Assembly (NCBI RefSeq): GCF_018860635.1
Contig: NZ_JAHKPT010000022.1
Location: 1-64,000, forward strand
Reading direction: 5' to 3'
Origin: Aliiglaciecola lipolytica
GTDB taxonomy: Bacteria; Pseudomonadota; Gammaproteobacteria; Enterobacterales; Alteromonadaceae
DNA: 64,000 nucleotides
In this document: positions 23,559 through 31,304 of the stretch, one piece after another
How positions within the stretch are numbered: the first letter of the stretch is position 1
How the letters are laid out: each line of letters opens with the position of its first letter
Program-made: the position numbers and the translations under genes
The notes under the pieces: model-generated
Databases searched by the model: none
Told to the model about the DNA's origin: nothing
Seen by the model: the letters and a program-made list of their open reading frames with translations, nothing else

Positions 23559-25379
23559 TTATGTTACTGGAAAGAATCCATATCGACCAATTTCCTTATT
23601 TTTTGAAAAGTGGTAGTAAGTCATTTTTGGTTTTAAAGCTTCTTCAGGCTCTTGGTTCTCAAACACGATTATTTGTTTATCATTAAATGAATCACAAAGA
23701 TCGATGTAGAAAGCAAAAATCATATCTTTCTGTAGTTGAACCTCATCATCATTCTCATCATTATCACCCGCACGATAAGTGGTCAAAGGCGAGTCCAAAA
23801 TTACAAACTTTGGATGGCGCTCAAACTTAGACAAATACTCCATTAAGCCTAGTGAGAAAGCTGCATACGAAATTGCTCGATATCCTTTACCAAAATGAGA
23901 TCTTGGCTTACCACCAATTATCAAATCCCTAGCTTTCATATCAAAAGTAACATTTTCATGCCCGGGAAATGACCAACGCTTTAAGATTTCACTTATATTC
24001 TTGCAAAGTGTGGTTAACTCAACACTAAAATCAGGGAATACATATTTTTCAGTTCTGTCTTCAAGCTGAACCCGCAACTCACCAATTTCTTTCAATAGGC
24101 TTTCACGAGAGTCGACTTTGGCTCTTTGCTTTAAAAATTCATTCTTTTTACTATTTAATAATCGAATAGCTACGTTATAGTCTTTGAACTTCGAAGATAT
24201 ATTCCCTTCGATTAACTCCGATAGCTCTTTAACTGTTGCTTCTTTTTGAACTATTTCTTTTGCAAGCAATTGGTACTCTTGTTTTAGGTCTTCAATTGAA
24301 TCCGTTAACCCTGTAACTTGAAATTTATTTTTATTGATTTCCGCTTCAGTGCTTTGCATTAATTGCTTTAGCTCTTCTACATCTTTTTCTTTTTCAAACT
24401 CTTGGCCGCATGTAGGACAATTTGCCATCTCGTATAGTTCTACAAAAGAAGCCGCTTCAGCTCCTGCTTCTAACCTTTCCAAATCTGAATTATATTTATC
24501 AATTAAAAGACTAAATCTTCCCTGAAGTAGAAGGTTTTCTTTTTCTGTTTCACGTAATTTGCTTAGCTCACCCCTAAATTTATTCCGTCTAGAATCAAGT
24601 TCACTATTGGCTTCAACCAGAGCACTTAGTTCGTCTTGAGCCTTAGATAGAGATTTCTCTAACTCATTCAATTCTGAGTCTAACTTTTCCGCTGTAGACT
24701 TTACTTCTTCATGGTTAGAAAATTTCTTGGCGACATACTCCTCCAAAGCTTTGACACGCGACTCTACAGCTCCTTCTGTATCTTGTTGTTGTTTTAACTC
24801 TTTCACCGCTGAGTCATCTGCGCCAGTAAGCAAAGTCTTAAGTAATGACGTTTCTTGTGTATGTTCTCGCTGACCTTCACCCAAAGGTGAAGATTCGGTA
24901 ATTATTCGTCCCTCGTCGACCAAAAATAGTTTACTCAGAACGCGCAAAGTCAAAGAAGAGGTTTTTAAACTCTGTACACCATTTACTAATACCTTGTCAT
25001 TTAGGCCCAATTTTCCGAGCACATGTGCCGATAGGTTATTTTTTCCTTTGTGGCTTGGGTTTAAAACAATAGTTTCTGATGCTGTACCATCTGGCTCAAG
25101 CTCAATTAGAGTAACCTTAGGCTTGGTAGCCGATATCTCCCTTCGAAGAATAAAGCTTTCTTTTTCGTCTACTTGAATCTCTGTTTCAACAGTATTATAA
25201 CCTTTAGCTTCATCAATATTTTTAGGAGGTTCTTCGCCACCAAAAATGTATTGAAAACACTTAATGACATATGACTTGCCCGTATCTGATGCACCAGCGA
25301 CAACATTTAATCCTTTATCAAAGCAAAGTTCAGCCTTTGGTTTTCCTTTTCCTGTTACGGATATTCTTTTGATAATCAT
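23559..25379 (-). CDS. ABC-3C SMC/Rad50-like ATPase with zinc-hook motif
   Basis: The 606-residue protein starts with an ABC ATPase N-lobe, Walker A GASDTGKS (residues 29-36). Coiled coil follows from about 190 to 440, broken by a CPTCG zinc-hook motif at 321-325. The C-lobe has GKGYRAISYAAFSLGL in the signature position (498-512) and Walker B FVILDSPL (525-532). This split head and hooked arm is that of Rad50/SMC-like ATPases, and with the two upstream partners it matches the ATPase of ABC-three-component (ABC-3C) systems. Its start overlaps the middle-component gene by four bases (ATGA). It probably powers DNA sensing for the nuclease partner; no activity is proven from sequence. Confidence 0.85.
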   Translation of the reverse strand: MIIKRISVTGKGKPKAELCFDKGLNVVAGASDTGKSYVIKCFQYIFGGEEPPKNIDEAKGYNTVETEIQVDEKESFILRREISATKPKVTLIELEPDGTASETIVLNPSHKGKNNLSAHVLGKLGLNDKVLVNGVQSLKTSSLTLRVLSKLFLVDEGRIITESSPLGEGQREHTQETSLLKTLLTGADDSAVKELKQQQDTEGAVESRVKALEEYVAKKFSNHEEVKSTAEKLDSELNELEKSLSKAQDELSALVEANSELDSRRNKFRGELSKLRETEKENLLLQGRFSLLIDKYNSDLERLEAGAEAASFVELYEMANCPTCGQEFEKEKDVEELKQLMQSTEAEINKNKFQVTGLTDSIEDLKQEYQLLAKEIVQKEATVKELSELIEGNISSKFKDYNVAIRLLNSKKNEFLKQRAKVDSRESLLKEIGELRVQLEDRTEKYVFPDFSVELTTLCKNISEILKRWSFPGHENVTFDMKARDLIIGGKPRSHFGKGYRAISYAAFSLGLMEYLSKFERHPKFVILDSPLTTYRAGDNDENDDEVQLQKDMIFAFYIDLCDSFNDKQIIVFENQEPEEALKPKMTYYHFSKNKEIGRYGFFPVT

Positions 25380-25831
25380 GCCGAACTCGATACTCCTTTT
25401 CTTAACTCCATTATTGGTATCTGGATAATCCGATTGTAATGCTCAGACAACCAACTTAATCGTTCCCAAATTTTGATGAAATAATTCGAATTTAAGCAGC
25501 TAACAAAGCTATTTGTATTTTCATTCGCACAAAAAGACTTTCCATTTTCATCATAGTGAACATCAATAAGCCCTTTTTTAATAAAAAACAAAAGCGACTT
25601 AGGAAGAAGCTCTCTTCGTTGCGCAATTTCAGCCAAATGATTTGGTACAGCCGGATGCAAATTTGATGGCCCATTGAATTCACTTGAATACAATAGTGCG
25701 TAGTCTAGTAAGACCAATGCATCTATGTCGAATTTCTTACCTTCCATACTCGATAGTATTAGTGCAACTCTAGTCGCCAATTCGACATCACTATTGAATA
25801 TTTGAGGGACTTTAAGTTTTACTTGTTCCAT
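25376..25831 (-). CDS. ABC-3C middle component
   Basis: The 151-residue, largely helical protein has the features of ABC-3C middle component (MC2-like) proteins: a winged-helix-like N-terminal half (DVELATRVALILSSMEGKKF, ALVLLDYALLYSSEF), then ELLPKSLLFFIKKGLIDVHY and a C-terminal segment NYFIKIWERLSWLSEHY. Such proteins bridge the effector and the ATPase. It overlaps the effector gene by 13 bases and the ATPase gene by 4, indicating tight translational coupling and probably a fixed stoichiometry. Recognition is by pattern and gene order; a profile search should settle the subfamily. Confidence 0.75.
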   Translation of the reverse strand: MEQVKLKVPQIFNSDVELATRVALILSSMEGKKFDIDALVLLDYALLYSSEFNGPSNLHPAVPNHLAEIAQRRELLPKSLLFFIKKGLIDVHYDENGKSFCANENTNSFVSCLNSNYFIKIWERLSWLSEHYNRIIQIPIMELRKGVSSSA

Positions 25832-26892
25832 TTTAAAGCTCCTTTATTCACCAGTTGGTGGCAAGCGCCTTTCTTATCCCGAATACTCATGTATAGATTT
25901 AATGGATGCGATGAAAATGAAACTTGTGTTACGTGACTTGAGATCGCCAAATATTTATCCCAACCATTGTTGTGAACCATCAAAACAAGGCTAGACATTG
26001 CTTCATAACAATCTTCAAGCAAATTTTCGTATGTATCAGGAGGCATTGAGTCTCTGGAAAATTTCTCTAAACTTTCTGCTGAATAGAAGTTTTTACGCGC
26101 ACTTTTTAGTTCCATCAAAAACTCAGGAAATGCTTTCAAATCATCAACAGAACTCACCTGAGATTCTATAGACTCTATTGCCTTTAATAACTCTGCAATA
26201 TATTTCAATTCATTATTTTGAATATCGCTTGGAGGTGTTGCAGGGGCTGGTCGATCAAACTCTAATGCTCCAAATCTTCTTATGTAATAAGGAGTATGAT
26301 TTTTATGTAATTCGATAAGCTTCAACTGTGGGATTTGATCAAATATTGTAAAATCAACATCATGCTCAACAAATTTAAGAAAATCACCTTCTAGGCTTAC
26401 ACTCTTTTTCTTGGTGATTTTGTCTTTGCACTTTTTATCCCAACCAGAAATGAGTTCTGCTTTCAGCTTATTAGAATCTTTAAGGGCATTAAGGCTAACG
26501 CCATTTAAGCCACTCTTAGCAACAAAGTAGTATTTTGCAGGCATAGAAAAATGCCCTTGATGTGAGTGATAACAAAGCTTACCAATTTCTAAAAGAATAT
26601 CTGTCAAATTCAATGGTGAGCTATAATATTTACACTGAAAGTTTTCCCAACTCTCATCTGGGGTGTAAGCAATAACATCACGCCCCATATCACCAGCGCC
26701 ACCAACTCTGTTTACTCTTAAATATTGCGTCTTCCAGCAAGTCGCTAATTCGGCGGTAAAGTCTTCCCAGTCACCCTCATTCATCTGCTGTAGTCGCTTT
26801 AAGGGCGGAATAATTTCTCCAGCCAATGCTGATACAGCTGATAGAGGAGCACTATCTGCTTTCGGGGAAGGCATTTCACTTTCTAATTCCAT
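25819..26892 (-). CDS. ABC-3C effector with Mrr-like restriction endonuclease domain
   Basis: The 357-residue protein has an N-terminal nuclease-like domain (about 35-165): WEDF with Glu43, GGAGDMGRDV with Asp68 and Asp72, and FQCKYY with Gln86 and Lys88. These fit the E...D...QxK pattern of Mrr-type PD-(D/E)xK nucleases. Its C-terminal part (about 215-357), with helical ELKYIAELLKAIESIESQ and the RDKKGACHQLVNKGALKW ending, fits the dedicated C-terminal domain of ABC-3C effectors that docks on the middle component. Predicted role: cleave DNA when triggered by the ATPase, as an anti-phage or anti-plasmid effector. It starts 54 bases after the toxin gene. Confidence 0.78.
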   Translation of the reverse strand: MELESEMPSPKADSAPLSAVSALAGEIIPPLKRLQQMNEGDWEDFTAELATCWKTQYLRVNRVGGAGDMGRDVIAYTPDESWENFQCKYYSSPLNLTDILLEIGKLCYHSHQGHFSMPAKYYFVAKSGLNGVSLNALKDSNKLKAELISGWDKKCKDKITKKKSVSLEGDFLKFVEHDVDFTIFDQIPQLKLIELHKNHTPYYIRRFGALEFDRPAPATPPSDIQNNELKYIAELLKAIESIESQVSSVDDLKAFPEFLMELKSARKNFYSAESLEKFSRDSMPPDTYENLLEDCYEAMSSLVLMVHNNGWDKYLAISSHVTQVSFSSHPLNLYMSIRDKKGACHQLVNKGALKWNK

Positions 26893-26946
26893 CTACTTCA
26901 TCTGTTCCATATTATTATTTTTACTAAATAATTTTCATATAGCAGG

Positions 26947-27912
26947 CTAACGTTTTTGCTCTATGTAATCCAACACTTCATTAGCCAACTTTAGAAAAAC
27001 AGCTAGTGCATCGAACCATTGAGTGGGATCGTCGGCATACACCATAGGGCTGACATAGCTATTGTAGCGTTCGATAAACTTTTCCTCTTCCACCAATAGT
27101 TTCAGTCCATAGCGGAGTTCATCAATAGGAGAGTCAACCATCTGTGGGTGCTGGTTACCGTAACGTCCGACATCAGATTGAATGGCTTTCGCGACTAATG
27201 GGCCAAGTATTTCAATTTTGGAAGGTTGAGCAAGTTGAATGTGGTAAGTATCATAGATATGCCTGATGAGCGTTTCATCATCACCCCGCTCAGCGTTTCT
27301 TGCAGCACTGGCTGTTCTGCGCATCATCGAAAGTAATTTCTCTGCTTGGGTATCTATGATTGCCGCACATCCCAACTTTTCCACTTCGATGTTAGTTTTT
27401 ACAACCTCAGAATAAATCGACTGGATACTTCTTGTTTGTGGCTCACTTAAAAGGTCTGACTCAATGAACTCCAATTTTATAAACGGCCTCAAGCAAGGCG
27501 CTTGTTGGTGCTCTTGTGGATAACGAATGTTAAAAACGAAATAACGGTACTCATCCCTAACTATCGCCTTTTCCTCAATGACGAAAAGCGAATGTTGTTC
27601 GAGCAATGATGCAATAAATTGCTTCACAGCCTTTCTAACTTGCTTCCTGCTATTTCGTGAGGTCAACTCAGAATAGTTTTCCTTAGGAATGAGCTTAATA
27701 TCAATGTCTTCTGACATTCGGTACGTTTTGATTGCAGACTTAGCAAGTGCGGTTCCACCAGAAAACACGATCTGGTGATATTCGAGGTCAAGAGATGAGA
27801 TAAGCTGAAGCAGTTGAACAACGTAATAGTCCTTCTCAACAATTGCCGGGTTGCCTAAGCCTATGGCATCGGCAACATCGACAAATAAGGAACTATCGAG
27901 CTTCGTTGACAC
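26947..27912 (-). CDS. AbiEii-type nucleotidyltransferase toxin
   Basis: The 321-residue protein of the AbiEii/AbiGii family has EKDYYV (26-31), the nucleotidyltransferase signature SGGTALAKS (51-59) followed by RMSEDIDI (65-72, the catalytic Asp pair), KLEF, and a later AEKLLSMMRRTASAARNA segment. Characterised homologues add nucleotides to tRNA ends or block translation, causing abortive infection; they are antitoxified without direct binding (type IV). The GTG at 27912 lies inside the antitoxin gene (20-base overlap). The predicted active-site motifs look intact. Confidence 0.88.
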   Translation of the reverse strand: MSTKLDSSLFVDVADAIGLGNPAIVEKDYYVVQLLQLISSLDLEYHQIVFSGGTALAKSAIKTYRMSEDIDIKLIPKENYSELTSRNSRKQVRKAVKQFIASLLEQHSLFVIEEKAIVRDEYRYFVFNIRYPQEHQQAPCLRPFIKLEFIESDLLSEPQTRSIQSIYSEVVKTNIEVEKLGCAAIIDTQAEKLLSMMRRTASAARNAERGDDETLIRHIYDTYHIQLAQPSKIEILGPLVAKAIQSDVGRYGNQHPQMVDSPIDELRYGLKLLVEEEKFIERYNSYVSPMVYADDPTQWFDALAVFLKLANEVLDYIEQKR

Positions 27913-28297
27913 ACTGTTTCCCTACAGCAATTTTACGGGTAAAGCGCGGATCTTTTGGAATGATCTTCACGTTTGCAGGAATTTGCGTGCTCTCGCCTGA
28001 AAAGTTCATACTCGACAAGTCATCGAACTTGTAATCAACACCTAGCCTTTCCATCGCCTCTATAAGCACGCCATCAGCACCAGCAGTATTATCAGGCATC
28101 AACTTACCCGTAATACGATTCACCCTAGCTCGCGCATAAAGACCATAACCAATTTTAATCAGCAAGCCCTCACGAACAAGGCTTCTAATCCCTCGCCCTA
28201 CTTGGTCATAGTCAGCGATATCTTTAAAATCAGAACGCAAGAAAACAGAACGCTTACAGCGTTTCACTCGTTTCTGTATTCTATCTTGTATCGTCAT
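27893..28297 (-). CDS. AbiEi-like antitoxin/regulator (DUF6088 family)
   Basis: The protein is 134 residues from the ATG at 28297, which has a GGGGG run about 10 bases upstream; the open frame extends to 28417 but crosses the operator repeats. The N-terminal winged HTH is SVFLRSDFKDIADYDQVGRGIRSLVREGLL, followed by KIGYGLYARAR. The C-terminal part has FSGESTQIPANVKI and ends with basic residues. AbiEi-like proteins both neutralise AbiEii and repress their own operon. The upstream palindrome and 24-bp repeats fit that role. It is the first gene of an operon with the toxin and perhaps the ABC-3C genes. Confidence 0.82.
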   Translation of the reverse strand: MTIQDRIQKRVKRCKRSVFLRSDFKDIADYDQVGRGIRSLVREGLLIKIGYGLYARARVNRITGKLMPDNTAGADGVLIEAMERLGVDYKFDDLSSMNFSGESTQIPANVKIIPKDPRFTRKIAVGKQCVNEAR

Positions 28298-28308
28298 CTG
28301 AGACCCCC

Positions 28309-28323
28309 TATACATACTGTATA
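28309..28323 (-). promoter_or_regulatory. Palindrome overlapping the abiE promoter region
   Basis: TATACA and TGTATA form a 15-bp inverted repeat with a 3-base centre, 12 bases upstream of the antitoxin start and next to TATA-rich -10-like sequence on the minus strand. It is a candidate antitoxin-binding site. Confidence 0.5.
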
Positions 28324-28334
28324 TATAATACGCA

Positions 28335-28416
28335 AAAATACGACATTTATCAATCTCTAAAATACGACAATAGAAAGCTACAAAAATACGACATAATATA
28401 TATTGCAAAAATGACA
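28335..28416 (-). repeat. Four direct repeats on an exact 24-bp period upstream of abiE
   Basis: AAAATACGACA (plus strand; TGTCGTATTTT on the coding strand) occurs at 28335-28345, 28359-28369 and 28383-28393, with a degenerate fourth copy at 28407-28416. Start positions are spaced exactly 24 bases, while the 13-base spacers differ. This is an iteron-like protein-binding array, not a simple tandem duplication. Confidence 0.85.
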
Positions 28417-28441
28417 TAATTTTTTGAATTTAAATCATATT

Positions 28442-28519
28442 TTATCTTATTCTAGCAGCAGGGTGCGACTTCTCGTAAGCGCGTTCAAGCTCAGGGTTGG
28501 TTACGTGGGTATAGACCAT
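28442..28519 (-). pseudogene. C-terminal remnant of a tyrosine recombinase (integrase)
   Basis: The minus strand encodes 25 residues, MVYTHVTNPELERAYEKSHP and five more, ending in a stop at 28442. Just before it in frame are the residues V-L-T-T, so the stretch reads TTMVYTHV...LERAYEKSHPAAR. This is the C-terminal pattern of XerC/D-like tyrosine recombinases, including the catalytic Tyr. Two stop codons lie immediately upstream, so the rest of the gene is gone. It marks past site-specific integration at the promoter side of the defence genes. Confidence 0.6.
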
Positions 28520-29042
28520 TGTGGTCAATACTCCTTATTAACTCATTCTGGGGCAATGATGAGTTAGCGGCAAGGTCAGCTTTTTGTCTTAAGCAGACCA
28601 CCACCATCGCGGTGGTCACGGTCCGCTTTTCGCTCAAACCCGCCTGTCAGTTTATTTAGTAAGTCTGAGTTTCAAACATTAATCAGTCGAATTTTTATAA
28701 AGTTTTAGCTTTGGTTTTTCCTAGTTACAAACATTGGGTAATTTAGGCAAAATCTAAGTACACAAAATTGCGGGTTTGAAACTGACTCAAGTTTTTGATG
28801 TGTGGTTGCATTGACAAAAGATGGGTATTTTCATGCCTATCGAGACGTCCTACAGGGCGCACCAACAAACAAGAATTAGCTGTGCTTATAGAGAAGTCGT
28901 CGGCATTTACATGGACAGCCACAAACTTGATTCTTAAGAAAAGCGAAGCAACTAAGTTTGTGTCATCTTTTCAAAGTGTGAATCTGGCCGCTTGAGGCTA
29001 TCGAGTTCAATCAGGTTTAAACTCATCGTAAATCTTATGCAT
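28520..29042. other. Gene-free right junction of the island
   Basis: No gene is supported in these 523 bases (a 66-codon frame at 28795 lacks a ribosome-binding site or recognisable product). They contain a hairpin (28591-28599 paired with 28620-28628, with an inner stem) and the inverted copy (28667-28683) of the repeat at 21521-21537. A further GGTTTGAAACT lies near 28773. Confidence 0.6.
28667..28683 (-). repeat. Right copy of the island-flanking inverted repeat
   Basis: Read on the minus strand, these 17 bases match 21521-21537 at 16 positions. The two copies face each other across 7.1 kb of accessory genes. Confidence 0.6.
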
Positions 29043-31304
29043 TTAAACGACTGCAGAGGAATCTAAAGGGAGTTCGAAATTCATTTTACGGTTAAGTGAG
29101 TCAACGTCTTTTAAAACAACCGTGACTTCATTCCCTATTTCAAATTCATGATGGTTGTTGGTTAATTTTTGCTTATTTGCGTCAAAGTTAAATCCTTGAC
29201 CGGGCAAACTTGCAATGTGCACTAGGCCTTCGGCACCAGATTGCGCTAACGTAACAAATAAACCTGAGCTGTTCATTCCCGATATACATGCTTCAAAAGA
29301 ATTGCCGATAAAAGGTTGCATATACTTGCACATCATTGCGTTTTCAACTTCGCGACTAACGATGTCTGCTAAGCGCGATTGGTTAGAGCAATGCACTGAT
29401 AAAAGCTCAATCTCTTCGGGGTTATAGGGATATGCCGTTTTAGGCAGTGTCTTATTTTGCAATTTATCCAACTTCAATTGGCGTAATACCCATTGCAACC
29501 CCGTTCTTTTTTGTTGTTTTCGAATCTTTGCGCGAATTGCTCGGTGAGTTAATAAATCAGGGTAGCGCCTAATTGGCGAAGTGAAATGGGCATAGGCGTC
29601 GTAAGCTAAACCAAAGTGTCCTTGATTATTTGGCGAATATTCCGCCTGACTTTGTGAGCGAAGTAACAAGGTTTGAATCACCTTTGCATCCGCTCTTTTA
29701 CTCACCTTTTTTAATAAATTATTATAGTGATGAGGTGTTGGCTTATCTCCGCCGCCGAGGTGTAAACCTTTGTCTGACAAAAATGCGCGAAGTGCCGTTA
29801 ACTTTTTCTGTTGCGGACCGGCATGTACTCTAAATAAACTCGGAATTTTGTTACGTTCTAAAAACTGCGCAGTGGCGACATTGGCGCAAAGCATGAACTC
29901 TTCTATCATTCGATGCGCGTCGTTGCGCTTCAGCGGTGATATGTTGGCGATGTTTTTATTTTTGTTGAGTTTAAGCGCGAGTTCTTGTGTTTCGAATTCA
30001 ATTGCACCTCGTTGTTTGCGTTGTTTGCCTAAAACTCTATACAAAGAGTGTAAGTTTGCAACATGTGGCACTATTTCTGGATTGGAATCGGAAATTGTCT
30101 TACCCAGCTTACTACCTGGTTTAGTAACAAGTGCATTAGCTTGATTGTATGTTAATCGAGCATGAGACTTAATCAAGCCCTCAGAAAACTGAGCGTTGCT
30201 AACTAGCCCTTTTTGATTAATTGTCATTTCGCAAACCATCACTAAGCGATCTTCATCTGGGTTTAGCGAGCAAAGTCCGTTGGACAAGGCTTCAGGTAAC
30301 ATAGGAACAACCTGATCTGGAAGATAAATTGATGTCGCTCGTTGTTGCGCCTCAATATCTAAATCATCGTTTGGCAGAACGTAGTGAGAAACATCTGCTA
30401 TTGCAACCAATAGACGCCATTCGCCAGTTTCTAACTTTTCACAATAAACCGCATCATCAAAGTCTTTCGCATCGGCACCATCAATGGTCACAAATGGCAG
30501 AGAGCGATAATCTACGCGCTGGGTTTTATCTTTTTCAGACACTTGCGTACCCAAAGCGCTTGCTGCTTCAAGTAGGGTGTTATCCCATTGAGCTGAAATA
30601 CCGTGTCGATAAAGGGCAAGTTTGCTGTCTATTCCGGCATCGCTAACGTTACCTAGTACGTCAGTAATTTCAACTTGTGTGTGTTGGCGAAAATTAGGGT
30701 AATTTAGGATTTTTGCATTCACATACTGACCGACGCGTGCTTGATTGAGTTTACTCTTATCAACCTGGATAATGTGTGAAATCTTGCTGTTATCTGACTG
30801 CAAGACGTAACCTTTACTCTCACGTTGGAGCAAACCAACAATGTGAGTGGTGTTGCGTTCGAGCACTTTAATCAGCGTATTGAAAGCACGTTTTGCGTTT
30901 TTTGTGGGTTCAATAAGTACCTGAACAATATCACCGTCAAATACGTGATTTAATTGGTTTTTGGGTAGAAATAAGTCTTTTTCAGACTCGCTATAAGTGA
31001 CGAATCCGAAGCCATCCGGGTGAATATTGATGACGCCACTTACCAGTGATTCTGGATCGATGAGTTGATAGCCCTTGCGCTGAAATGATAGCTGACCATC
31101 ACGTTCCATGGCGCGCAAACGTCTTCTTAGTGCTTCTTTATCTTGTGAGGAGTGCAATGCCAATGCATCGGCGATTTGTTCGCGGTTTAGGTGTTTTTTG
31201 ACGTTGCTAAACAGGCTTAATATAAATTCACGACCAGGAATAGGGTTGTCATAGGTTCTAACATTTGCAGGGTGAGTTGCTGAAATTGATGCGGTTTGAT
31301 TCAA
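29043..31304 (-). CDS. rnr: Ribonuclease R (short form)
   Basis: The 753-residue 3'-5' exoribonuclease degrades structured RNA. Domains in order: an N-terminal winged helix (about 25-85), cold-shock OB folds (SGVINIHPDGFGFV near residue 90), the RNB catalytic domain (TIDGADAKDFDDAVYC with the metal-binding Asp cluster near 275; HFTSPIRRYPDL near 585), and an S1 domain (SFEACISGMNSSGLFVTL). It stops just after S1, so the lysine-rich tail seen in E. coli RNase R (813 aa) is missing. It sits beside a cold-shock gene rather than with nsrR and rlmB, and may be a second, cold-linked copy. Confidence 0.92.
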   Translation of the reverse strand: MNQTASISATHPANVRTYDNPIPGREFILSLFSNVKKHLNREQIADALALHSSQDKEALRRRLRAMERDGQLSFQRKGYQLIDPESLVSGVINIHPDGFGFVTYSESEKDLFLPKNQLNHVFDGDIVQVLIEPTKNAKRAFNTLIKVLERNTTHIVGLLQRESKGYVLQSDNSKISHIIQVDKSKLNQARVGQYVNAKILNYPNFRQHTQVEITDVLGNVSDAGIDSKLALYRHGISAQWDNTLLEAASALGTQVSEKDKTQRVDYRSLPFVTIDGADAKDFDDAVYCEKLETGEWRLLVAIADVSHYVLPNDDLDIEAQQRATSIYLPDQVVPMLPEALSNGLCSLNPDEDRLVMVCEMTINQKGLVSNAQFSEGLIKSHARLTYNQANALVTKPGSKLGKTISDSNPEIVPHVANLHSLYRVLGKQRKQRGAIEFETQELALKLNKNKNIANISPLKRNDAHRMIEEFMLCANVATAQFLERNKIPSLFRVHAGPQQKKLTALRAFLSDKGLHLGGGDKPTPHHYNNLLKKVSKRADAKVIQTLLLRSQSQAEYSPNNQGHFGLAYDAYAHFTSPIRRYPDLLTHRAIRAKIRKQQKRTGLQWVLRQLKLDKLQNKTLPKTAYPYNPEEIELLSVHCSNQSRLADIVSREVENAMMCKYMQPFIGNSFEACISGMNSSGLFVTLAQSGAEGLVHIASLPGQGFNFDANKQKLTNNHHEFEIGNEVTVVLKDVDSLNRKMNFELPLDSSAVV

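Follow-up and report, generated by a model that had tools for sequence, protein, structure and literature searches.

Immediately upstream of a small DUF6088 gene in Aliiglaciecola lipolytica lies a series of regularly spaced DNA repeats, which raises the question of which protein reads them and what their recognition controls. In the stretch analysed here (64,000 nucleotides, hereafter the window), the array lies on the minus strand, which is the coding strand of the gene, and consists of three good sites and one decayed site of a 13-letter unit, TGTCGTATTTTTG. Copy 1, proximal to the gene (28333..28345), and copy 3 (28381..28393) carry this unit, and copy 2 (28357..28369; TGTCGTATTTTAG) differs from it by one mismatch; copy 2 lies 24 bp upstream of copy 1, and copy 3 lies 24 bp upstream of copy 2. 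The first-pass annotation had described four sites on an exact 24-bp period. This description holds for three copies, in which the exact 11-mer AAAATACGACA starts at 28335, 28359 and 28383, but not for the fourth (28405..28416, minus strand; TGTCATTTTTGC), which is decayed and off register: its TGTC is located 23, not 24, bases from the TGTC of copy 3, two core bases are absent, and the proposed start at 28407 matches only by way of a run of A. The 11-base core reported earlier is indeed present exactly three times, but the unit kept in relatives is longer and corresponds to the 13-letter TGTCGTATTTTTG. The spacers between the copies are unrelated sequence, as had been observed, and those of relatives are likewise unconserved.

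Across the full 64-kb window, the 11-mer AAAATACGACA has no exact matches other than the three array copies, and at least three copies of any 11-mer arose in 17 of 20,000 dinucleotide shuffles of the region 28300-28420. The window by itself thus provides moderate evidence against chance, and the comparative evidence described below is strong. A second proposed element, a 15-bp palindrome between the array and the gene (28309-28323; TATACATACTGTATA), turned out to be at chance level. Its 6-bp arms flank 3 bases and score 12/15, a value equalled or bettered by 411 of 2,000 shuffles, and no such palindrome was seen upstream of relatives when these regions were read by eye. Searches for an RNA element gave no Rfam match at the gathering threshold in 27000-30000.

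The gene downstream of the array (27893..28297, minus strand) encodes a DUF6088/AbiEi-like antitoxin of 134 aa, which we propose as the repressor (Pfam PF19570, E 2.5e-9; PADLOC AbiEi, E 9.6e-49; winged-helix model). With a 20-bp overlap, it is followed by a gene for an AbiEii nucleotidyltransferase toxin (26947..27912, minus strand; Pfam PF08843, E 7.8e-28; PADLOC AbiEii). The pair shares two features with type IV systems of the AbiE kind, namely a toxin gene directly after the antitoxin gene and an AbiEi-type antitoxin with an N-terminal winged helix (supported by PADLOC, the structure model and Foldseek). Further along the same strand, domain and PADLOC matches point to homologues of three Lamassu genes: an LmuA-like effector (25819..26892; CTD6, with a weak Mrr-like match), an LmuC-like protein (25376..25831; MC2) and an LmuB-like SMC-type ATPase (23559..25379). 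The LmuA-like gene starts 54 bp past the end of the toxin gene, and the region 26600-27300 contains no minus-strand terminator-like site, although it does contain a weak promoter-like site. The LmuA-like gene is probably read through from the toxin-antitoxin operon, and the Lamassu genes are likely co-transcribed with DUF6088-AbiEii.

Lamassu as a constant partner of DUF6088 was considered and rejected, as no Lmu match was found in 48 loci with a DUF6088 match (the window's loci excluded), whose searched flanks spanned 1.5-6 kb and were in some cases ended by contig ends. In five of 18 plasmid loci (L243, L247, L249, L252 and L253), DUF6088-AbiEii is followed, in the same orientation, by genes for type I restriction-modification. 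The DUF6088-AbiEii pair may often head defence operons, with Lamassu in the window and type I restriction-modification in the plasmid loci.

The repeats overlap the predicted promoter of the antitoxin gene, an arrangement also characteristic of AbiEi-type operators. A consensus scan predicts a sigma-70-like promoter with a -35 box, TTGATA (28348..28353, minus strand), located 2 bp upstream of copy 1, and a -10 box, TATTAT (28325..28330, minus strand). Copy 1 fills the spacer between the two boxes, and the remaining copies lie upstream. The same scan found three promoter-like sites compared with 3.4 expected in shuffles, which is weak alone; the predicted promoter therefore rests on its position. 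Among relatives, 13 of 54 site-bearing entries have a TTGAn(A/C) box no more than 10 bp to the 5' side of their proximal site; most of these are near relatives, and it is for these that the promoter geometry is supported.

The first-pass annotation had made its reading depend on similar arrays being present at homologous operons. Loci of relatives were gathered by protein similarity and not by motif. In a first set of 45 homologous genes, obtained after removal of seven duplicates (loci of the window itself, or genes already represented from another source), 38 have at least one coding-strand site with at most two mismatches in the 200 bp before the gene. This set contains 72 coding-strand sites versus 2 on the opposite strand, whereas shuffles average 0.8 over the two strands together. 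A larger set, which added further genomes and the 18 plasmid loci and was reduced at 95% identity to 124 proteins, was examined for sites within 120 bp upstream, with close relatives defined by at least 160 bits to the profile of A1. Here, a site precedes 54 of 62 close relatives, 3 of 31 intermediate and none of 31 distant DUF6088 proteins; at 70% identity, the corresponding values are 25/27, 3/18 and 0/28.

Neighbouring sites in these relatives are direct repeats with a period of 23 (12 cases), 24 (34 cases) or 25 bp (one case), which does not equal a whole number of helical turns, and this layout persists down to about 40% protein identity. Sites carry 1.76-1.85 bits of information per column and spacers only 0.46-0.68 bits, in agreement with the earlier argument that a core kept while spacers vary speaks against recent duplication. 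Among loci with an organism in the title, members with direct repeats come from Pseudomonadota (19), Bacteroidota (6), Cyanobacteriota (3) and Bdellovibrionota (1), many of them being metagenome bins. Similar arrays at homologous operons are thus present, spanning at least four phyla. Such near-identical recurrence ahead of related genes in widely separated bacteria makes the array very likely to be the switch that the antitoxin binds to control its own operon.

The association was also recovered from the opposite direction, by searching for the DNA pattern. A pair of TGTCGTATNTTTG with a gap of 0 to 30 occurs 18 times in 17 of 390 Bacteroidota genomes, always with a period of 23-25, and the reversed control pattern is absent from all 390. 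Seventeen of these pairs directly precede a DUF6088 gene or gene fragment, and the remaining one lies in the right orientation 54 bases from a contig end. In one Bacteroidota genome (G754, contig C25, 26165-38679), about 12.5 kb of a single contig hold three DUF6088 matches, of which two have exact operator pairs and one is interrupted by a stop. In Gammaproteobacteria, the exact two-copy pattern was found in none of 331 genomes, including the window's own. Since copies deviate in this group, as seen in copy 2 of the window and in two genomes (G424 and G459) where the sites before close DUF6088 relatives deviate or occur singly, the exact-pair search is too strict there. A wider regulon in the window's own genome was rejected, with 14 exact 11-mers (3 in the array and 11 scattered) compared with 10 for the reversed control pattern.

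In a viral collection, the pair is present in eight contigs (the identical eight after the gap was widened to 0-30), with DUF6088 immediately downstream in five, the others being three related phage contigs without DUF6088 nearby; the inverted arrangement of the motif was not found in viral contigs. Two or three tandem copies of TGTCGTATTTTTG with a 23-bp period occur in L095 (1025-1060), L096 (6898-6954) and L097 (6693-6728), in non-coding DNA behind a terminase large subunit gene and with DUF6088 absent nearby. These phage arrays could represent a decoy operator, a phage promoter or a coincidence. A phage-wide promoter gains no support from the records at hand, fragments of 15.7, 7.8 and 6.9 kb, which contain no more copies at up to three mismatches.

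Other DUF6088 clades are preceded by other elements. The upstream element TGTCGTAnAnTGACA is found in 9/9 genes of the KIGQGIYVRA clade, TGTCCATTTTTGGCG-like elements in 4/7 of the RQ[VIL]SR clade and GACTATTT repeats in 2/2 of the NREQLRLNR clade; for the SQSQISR clade, no common motif was pinned down, the pattern tried being present in 1/6. Three Bacteroidota genomes (G679, G754 and G781) contain both clade-1 and KIGQGIYVRA-clade genes, and each kind has its own element there. When mapped on the protein tree, the layout label requires 17 changes versus a shuffled mean of 48.6, and none of 200 shuffles gave a value as low, with the qualification that the tree is based on few columns, has many open forks and contains near-copies that favour clustering.

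These data bear on the strongest alternative, namely that the repeats constitute a promoter or host-activator element, such as a sigma-factor box or a UP-like element, and not a DUF6088 site. Such an element would fit an AT-rich array located on a promoter. In addition, the -7 consensus of Bacteroidota promoters is TAnnTTTG, which TATTTTTG fits, and in Bacteroidota the site may double as a promoter box. However, the same element occurs in Pseudomonadota, Bacteroidota, Cyanobacteriota and Bdellovibrionota, its paired form is found essentially only before DUF6088 in the 390 Bacteroidota genomes, clade-1 and clade-2 DUF6088 genes differ in their element within the same three genomes, and the window has separate -35 and -10 candidates. 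As the site follows the DUF6088 clade, also within one genome, a cognate binding site is likely, and we consider a host element improbable.

Eight of the 62 close relatives lack the motif as defined. Five Vibrio/Shewanella-type proteins have the variant TGCCGTAT(T/C)TATTCC in its place, and a single weak site is present in L043. No site precedes two plasmid copies from Alteromonas (L240 and L244), which lie directly behind an Xre-RES pair and have no annotated AbiEii adjoining; L021 also has no site and lies behind a RES gene. In these three loci, DUF6088 without AbiEii and operator behind a RES gene resembles an antitoxin taken into another toxin-antitoxin operon. Three other loci (L011, L018 and L038) keep their sites and have no downstream match to the window's AbiEii, and the toxin is thus seemingly not needed for site upkeep. 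In five further loci (L012, L013, L019, L024 and L255), the DUF6088 gene and operator are intact but the adjacent AbiEii gene is split or has lost part of its sequence, so that antitoxin and switch seem to outlive the toxin.

Traces of mobile elements are found next to several arrays. Positions 28442-28525 of the window (minus strand) contain the remnant of a tyrosine-recombinase C-terminus (TTMVYTHVTNPELERAYEKSHPAARIR), closely similar to one before the DUF6088 gene of L022. The DUF6088 genes of L009 and L016 likewise have recombinase-like ends ahead of them, and those of L247 and L250 are preceded by Phage_integrase genes. The array could accordingly be bound by another partner of the module, either the AbiEii toxin, which adjoins in many loci, or a mobile-element recombinase, given the tyrosine-recombinase genes or remnants just upstream of the array in the window and the five loci just named, and not be the antitoxin's operator. 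Yet the sites are retained in the three loci without a match to the window's AbiEii, they change with the DUF6088 clade, and a recombinase-like end was detected in only three of 11 other loci whose flanks were searched, making this possibility very improbable.

Least credible of all is a recent tandem duplication, or a replication or recombination iteron array, without a regulatory role, which would explain the regular period and the 11-mer identity in the window but not the variable spacers between conserved sites, the persistence of the layout at about 40% identity, the position of the array before DUF6088 wherever that gene is found with it, or the lack of an identified replication initiator alongside. 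The term 'iteron-like' used in the first-pass annotation is thus misleading as regards replication: the array is located on a promoter, and the identified genes flanking it, to which the initiator check applied (DUF6088-AbiEii-Lmu in one direction, an RNB-domain, rnr-like gene in the opposite one), include no replication initiator.

Based on these sequence comparisons, we consider the array highly likely to serve the DUF6088-AbiEii operon as its autoregulatory operator, with DUF6088 as the binder. Counting against this reading are the eight close relatives without the motif, the absence of the exact pair from the 331 gammaproteobacterial genomes, the three phage contigs with an array but no DUF6088 gene nearby, the small share of entries with the -35-like box, the period that does not fit whole helical turns, and, for the link with protein length described below, the inverted repeats seen for only 11 of 30 long proteins and the direct repeats of 3 of 26. 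The recurrence of arrays at homologous operons supports the operator assignment made in the first-pass annotation, with binding itself as a proposal. The structure model of DUF6088 displays a winged-helix arrangement (pLDDT 91.5), and its helix 30-42 (YDQVGRGIRSLVR) includes five residues that are invariant in 24 aligned sequences (Y30, D31, Q32, G34 and R35). In Foldseek, the top two solved structures are AbiEi chains (6y8q) with weak E values of 0.026 and 0.048, and Rv2827c (1zel) ranks 12th; a second alignment with 1zel covers 124 residues at Z 5.4, a score that unrelated winged-helix proteins equal or exceed. A sequence search of solved structures returned only Vipp1/PspA (E 0.42 or more), which we took as chance. 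The modelled fold thus points to an AbiEi-like protein that binds DNA but does not go beyond that.

In the proposed autoregulatory mechanism, each TGTCGTATTTTTG would be one asymmetric site for one DUF6088 winged-helix domain, with approximately residues 30-42 acting as the recognition helix. With the proximal site placed in the spacer of the predicted promoter and further copies 24 bp apart upstream, the bound protein should exclude RNA polymerase, and the antitoxin, the toxin and probably the Lamassu genes would be shut off together. When free antitoxin falls, the promoter would open again. The position of the array thus suggests repression by promoter blocking, and the Lamassu genes would also come under its control.

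The layout of the sites is linked to the form of the protein. The first-pass annotation had pointed to direct rather than inverted repeats, and these are seen both in the window and across relatives. An inverted TGTC...GACA repeat of 28-30 bp precedes 11 of 30 distant, mostly long (~200 aa) DUF6088 proteins and none of 94 other proteins; it is found before none of the 62 close relatives, which accordingly lack the inverted repeats of AbiEi-type operators. An independent repeat scan of 67 nonredundant upstream regions detected significant direct repeats for 20/41 short and 3/26 long proteins, and significant inverted repeats for 1/41 short and 7/26 long proteins. The single 'short' inverted case, L208, is a long protein cut by the region end (open frame of 206 aa). 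With L208 counted as long, the table comprises 20 direct and 0 inverted cases for short proteins and 3 and 8 for long ones (Fisher p 2e-5, a rough test restricted to entries whose repeat reached a p value of at most 0.05, as estimated from 20 shuffles per entry). A TGTC-anchored site thus recurs across DUF6088, arranged head-to-tail every 23-25 bp for short proteins (~135 aa) and often inverted over 28-30 bp for long ones (~200 aa), AbiEi likewise having inverted repeats; this provides a rule linking protein form to operator layout. The common TGT(C/T) start suggests one ancestral half-site, and the C-terminal part absent from short proteins may explain the difference between direct and inverted layouts.

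DUF6088, a little-studied antitoxin family, now has a concrete candidate DNA target, and DUF6088 operons can be found by DNA pattern. Unrelated mobile elements with the same operator are predicted to cross-regulate each other. Since one nearly invariant operator is found in several phyla, on chromosomes and plasmids as well as in prophage-like records, short DUF6088 modules might even form one cross-talking group, in which a resident DUF6088 silences or neutralises an incoming operon, toxin-less copies serve as immunity genes and the phage arrays of L095-L097 act as repressor-titrating decoys; we put this forward as a speculative and rather unlikely extension. In the open-access literature searched, we found no description of the TGTCGTATTTTTG motif or of a DUF6088 operator, and in PMC6581861 the 11-mer is present only within a primer. 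Autoregulation itself is known for AbiE; what appears to be new, judging from the conserved DNA, is an AbiE-type autoregulatory operator whose sites run head-to-tail and are nearly identical in sequence from one phylum to another.

Among the systems comparable to the window's array are the long DUF6088 proteins (PF19570, ~180-240 aa) of the genomes analysed, which belong to the same Pfam family and have a TGTC-anchored upstream site. Unlike the window, these show the 28-30 bp inverted repeat in 11/30 cases, and direct TGTCGTATTTTTG (at most two mismatches) in 0/31 distant proteins. In Mycobacterium tuberculosis, the Rv2827c (MenA3) operator comprises two pairs of 23-bp inverted repeats (PMC7319586). 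Both systems place several repeats over a toxin-antitoxin promoter and share a related fold (124 residues, Z 5.4), whereas Rv2827c has inverted pairs and 293 aa, and the window has direct repeats and a protein of 134 aa. For AbiE of Streptococcus agalactiae, PMC3985639 reports demonstrated negative autoregulation and repeats that overlap the promoter, with two inverted repeats of the AbiEi half-site TGTTGCTTTTA, N27 apart and with an 11-bp core. The window likewise combines a winged-helix antitoxin gene before an AbiEii-type toxin gene with repeats over a promoter, here a predicted one, and the AbiEi half-site resembles the window's TGTCGTATTTT at 7/11 positions. In contrast to the two inverted repeats of S. 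agalactiae and to the 184-195 aa of solved AbiEi chains, the window pairs a DUF6088 protein of 134 aa with three or four direct repeats on a 24-bp period.
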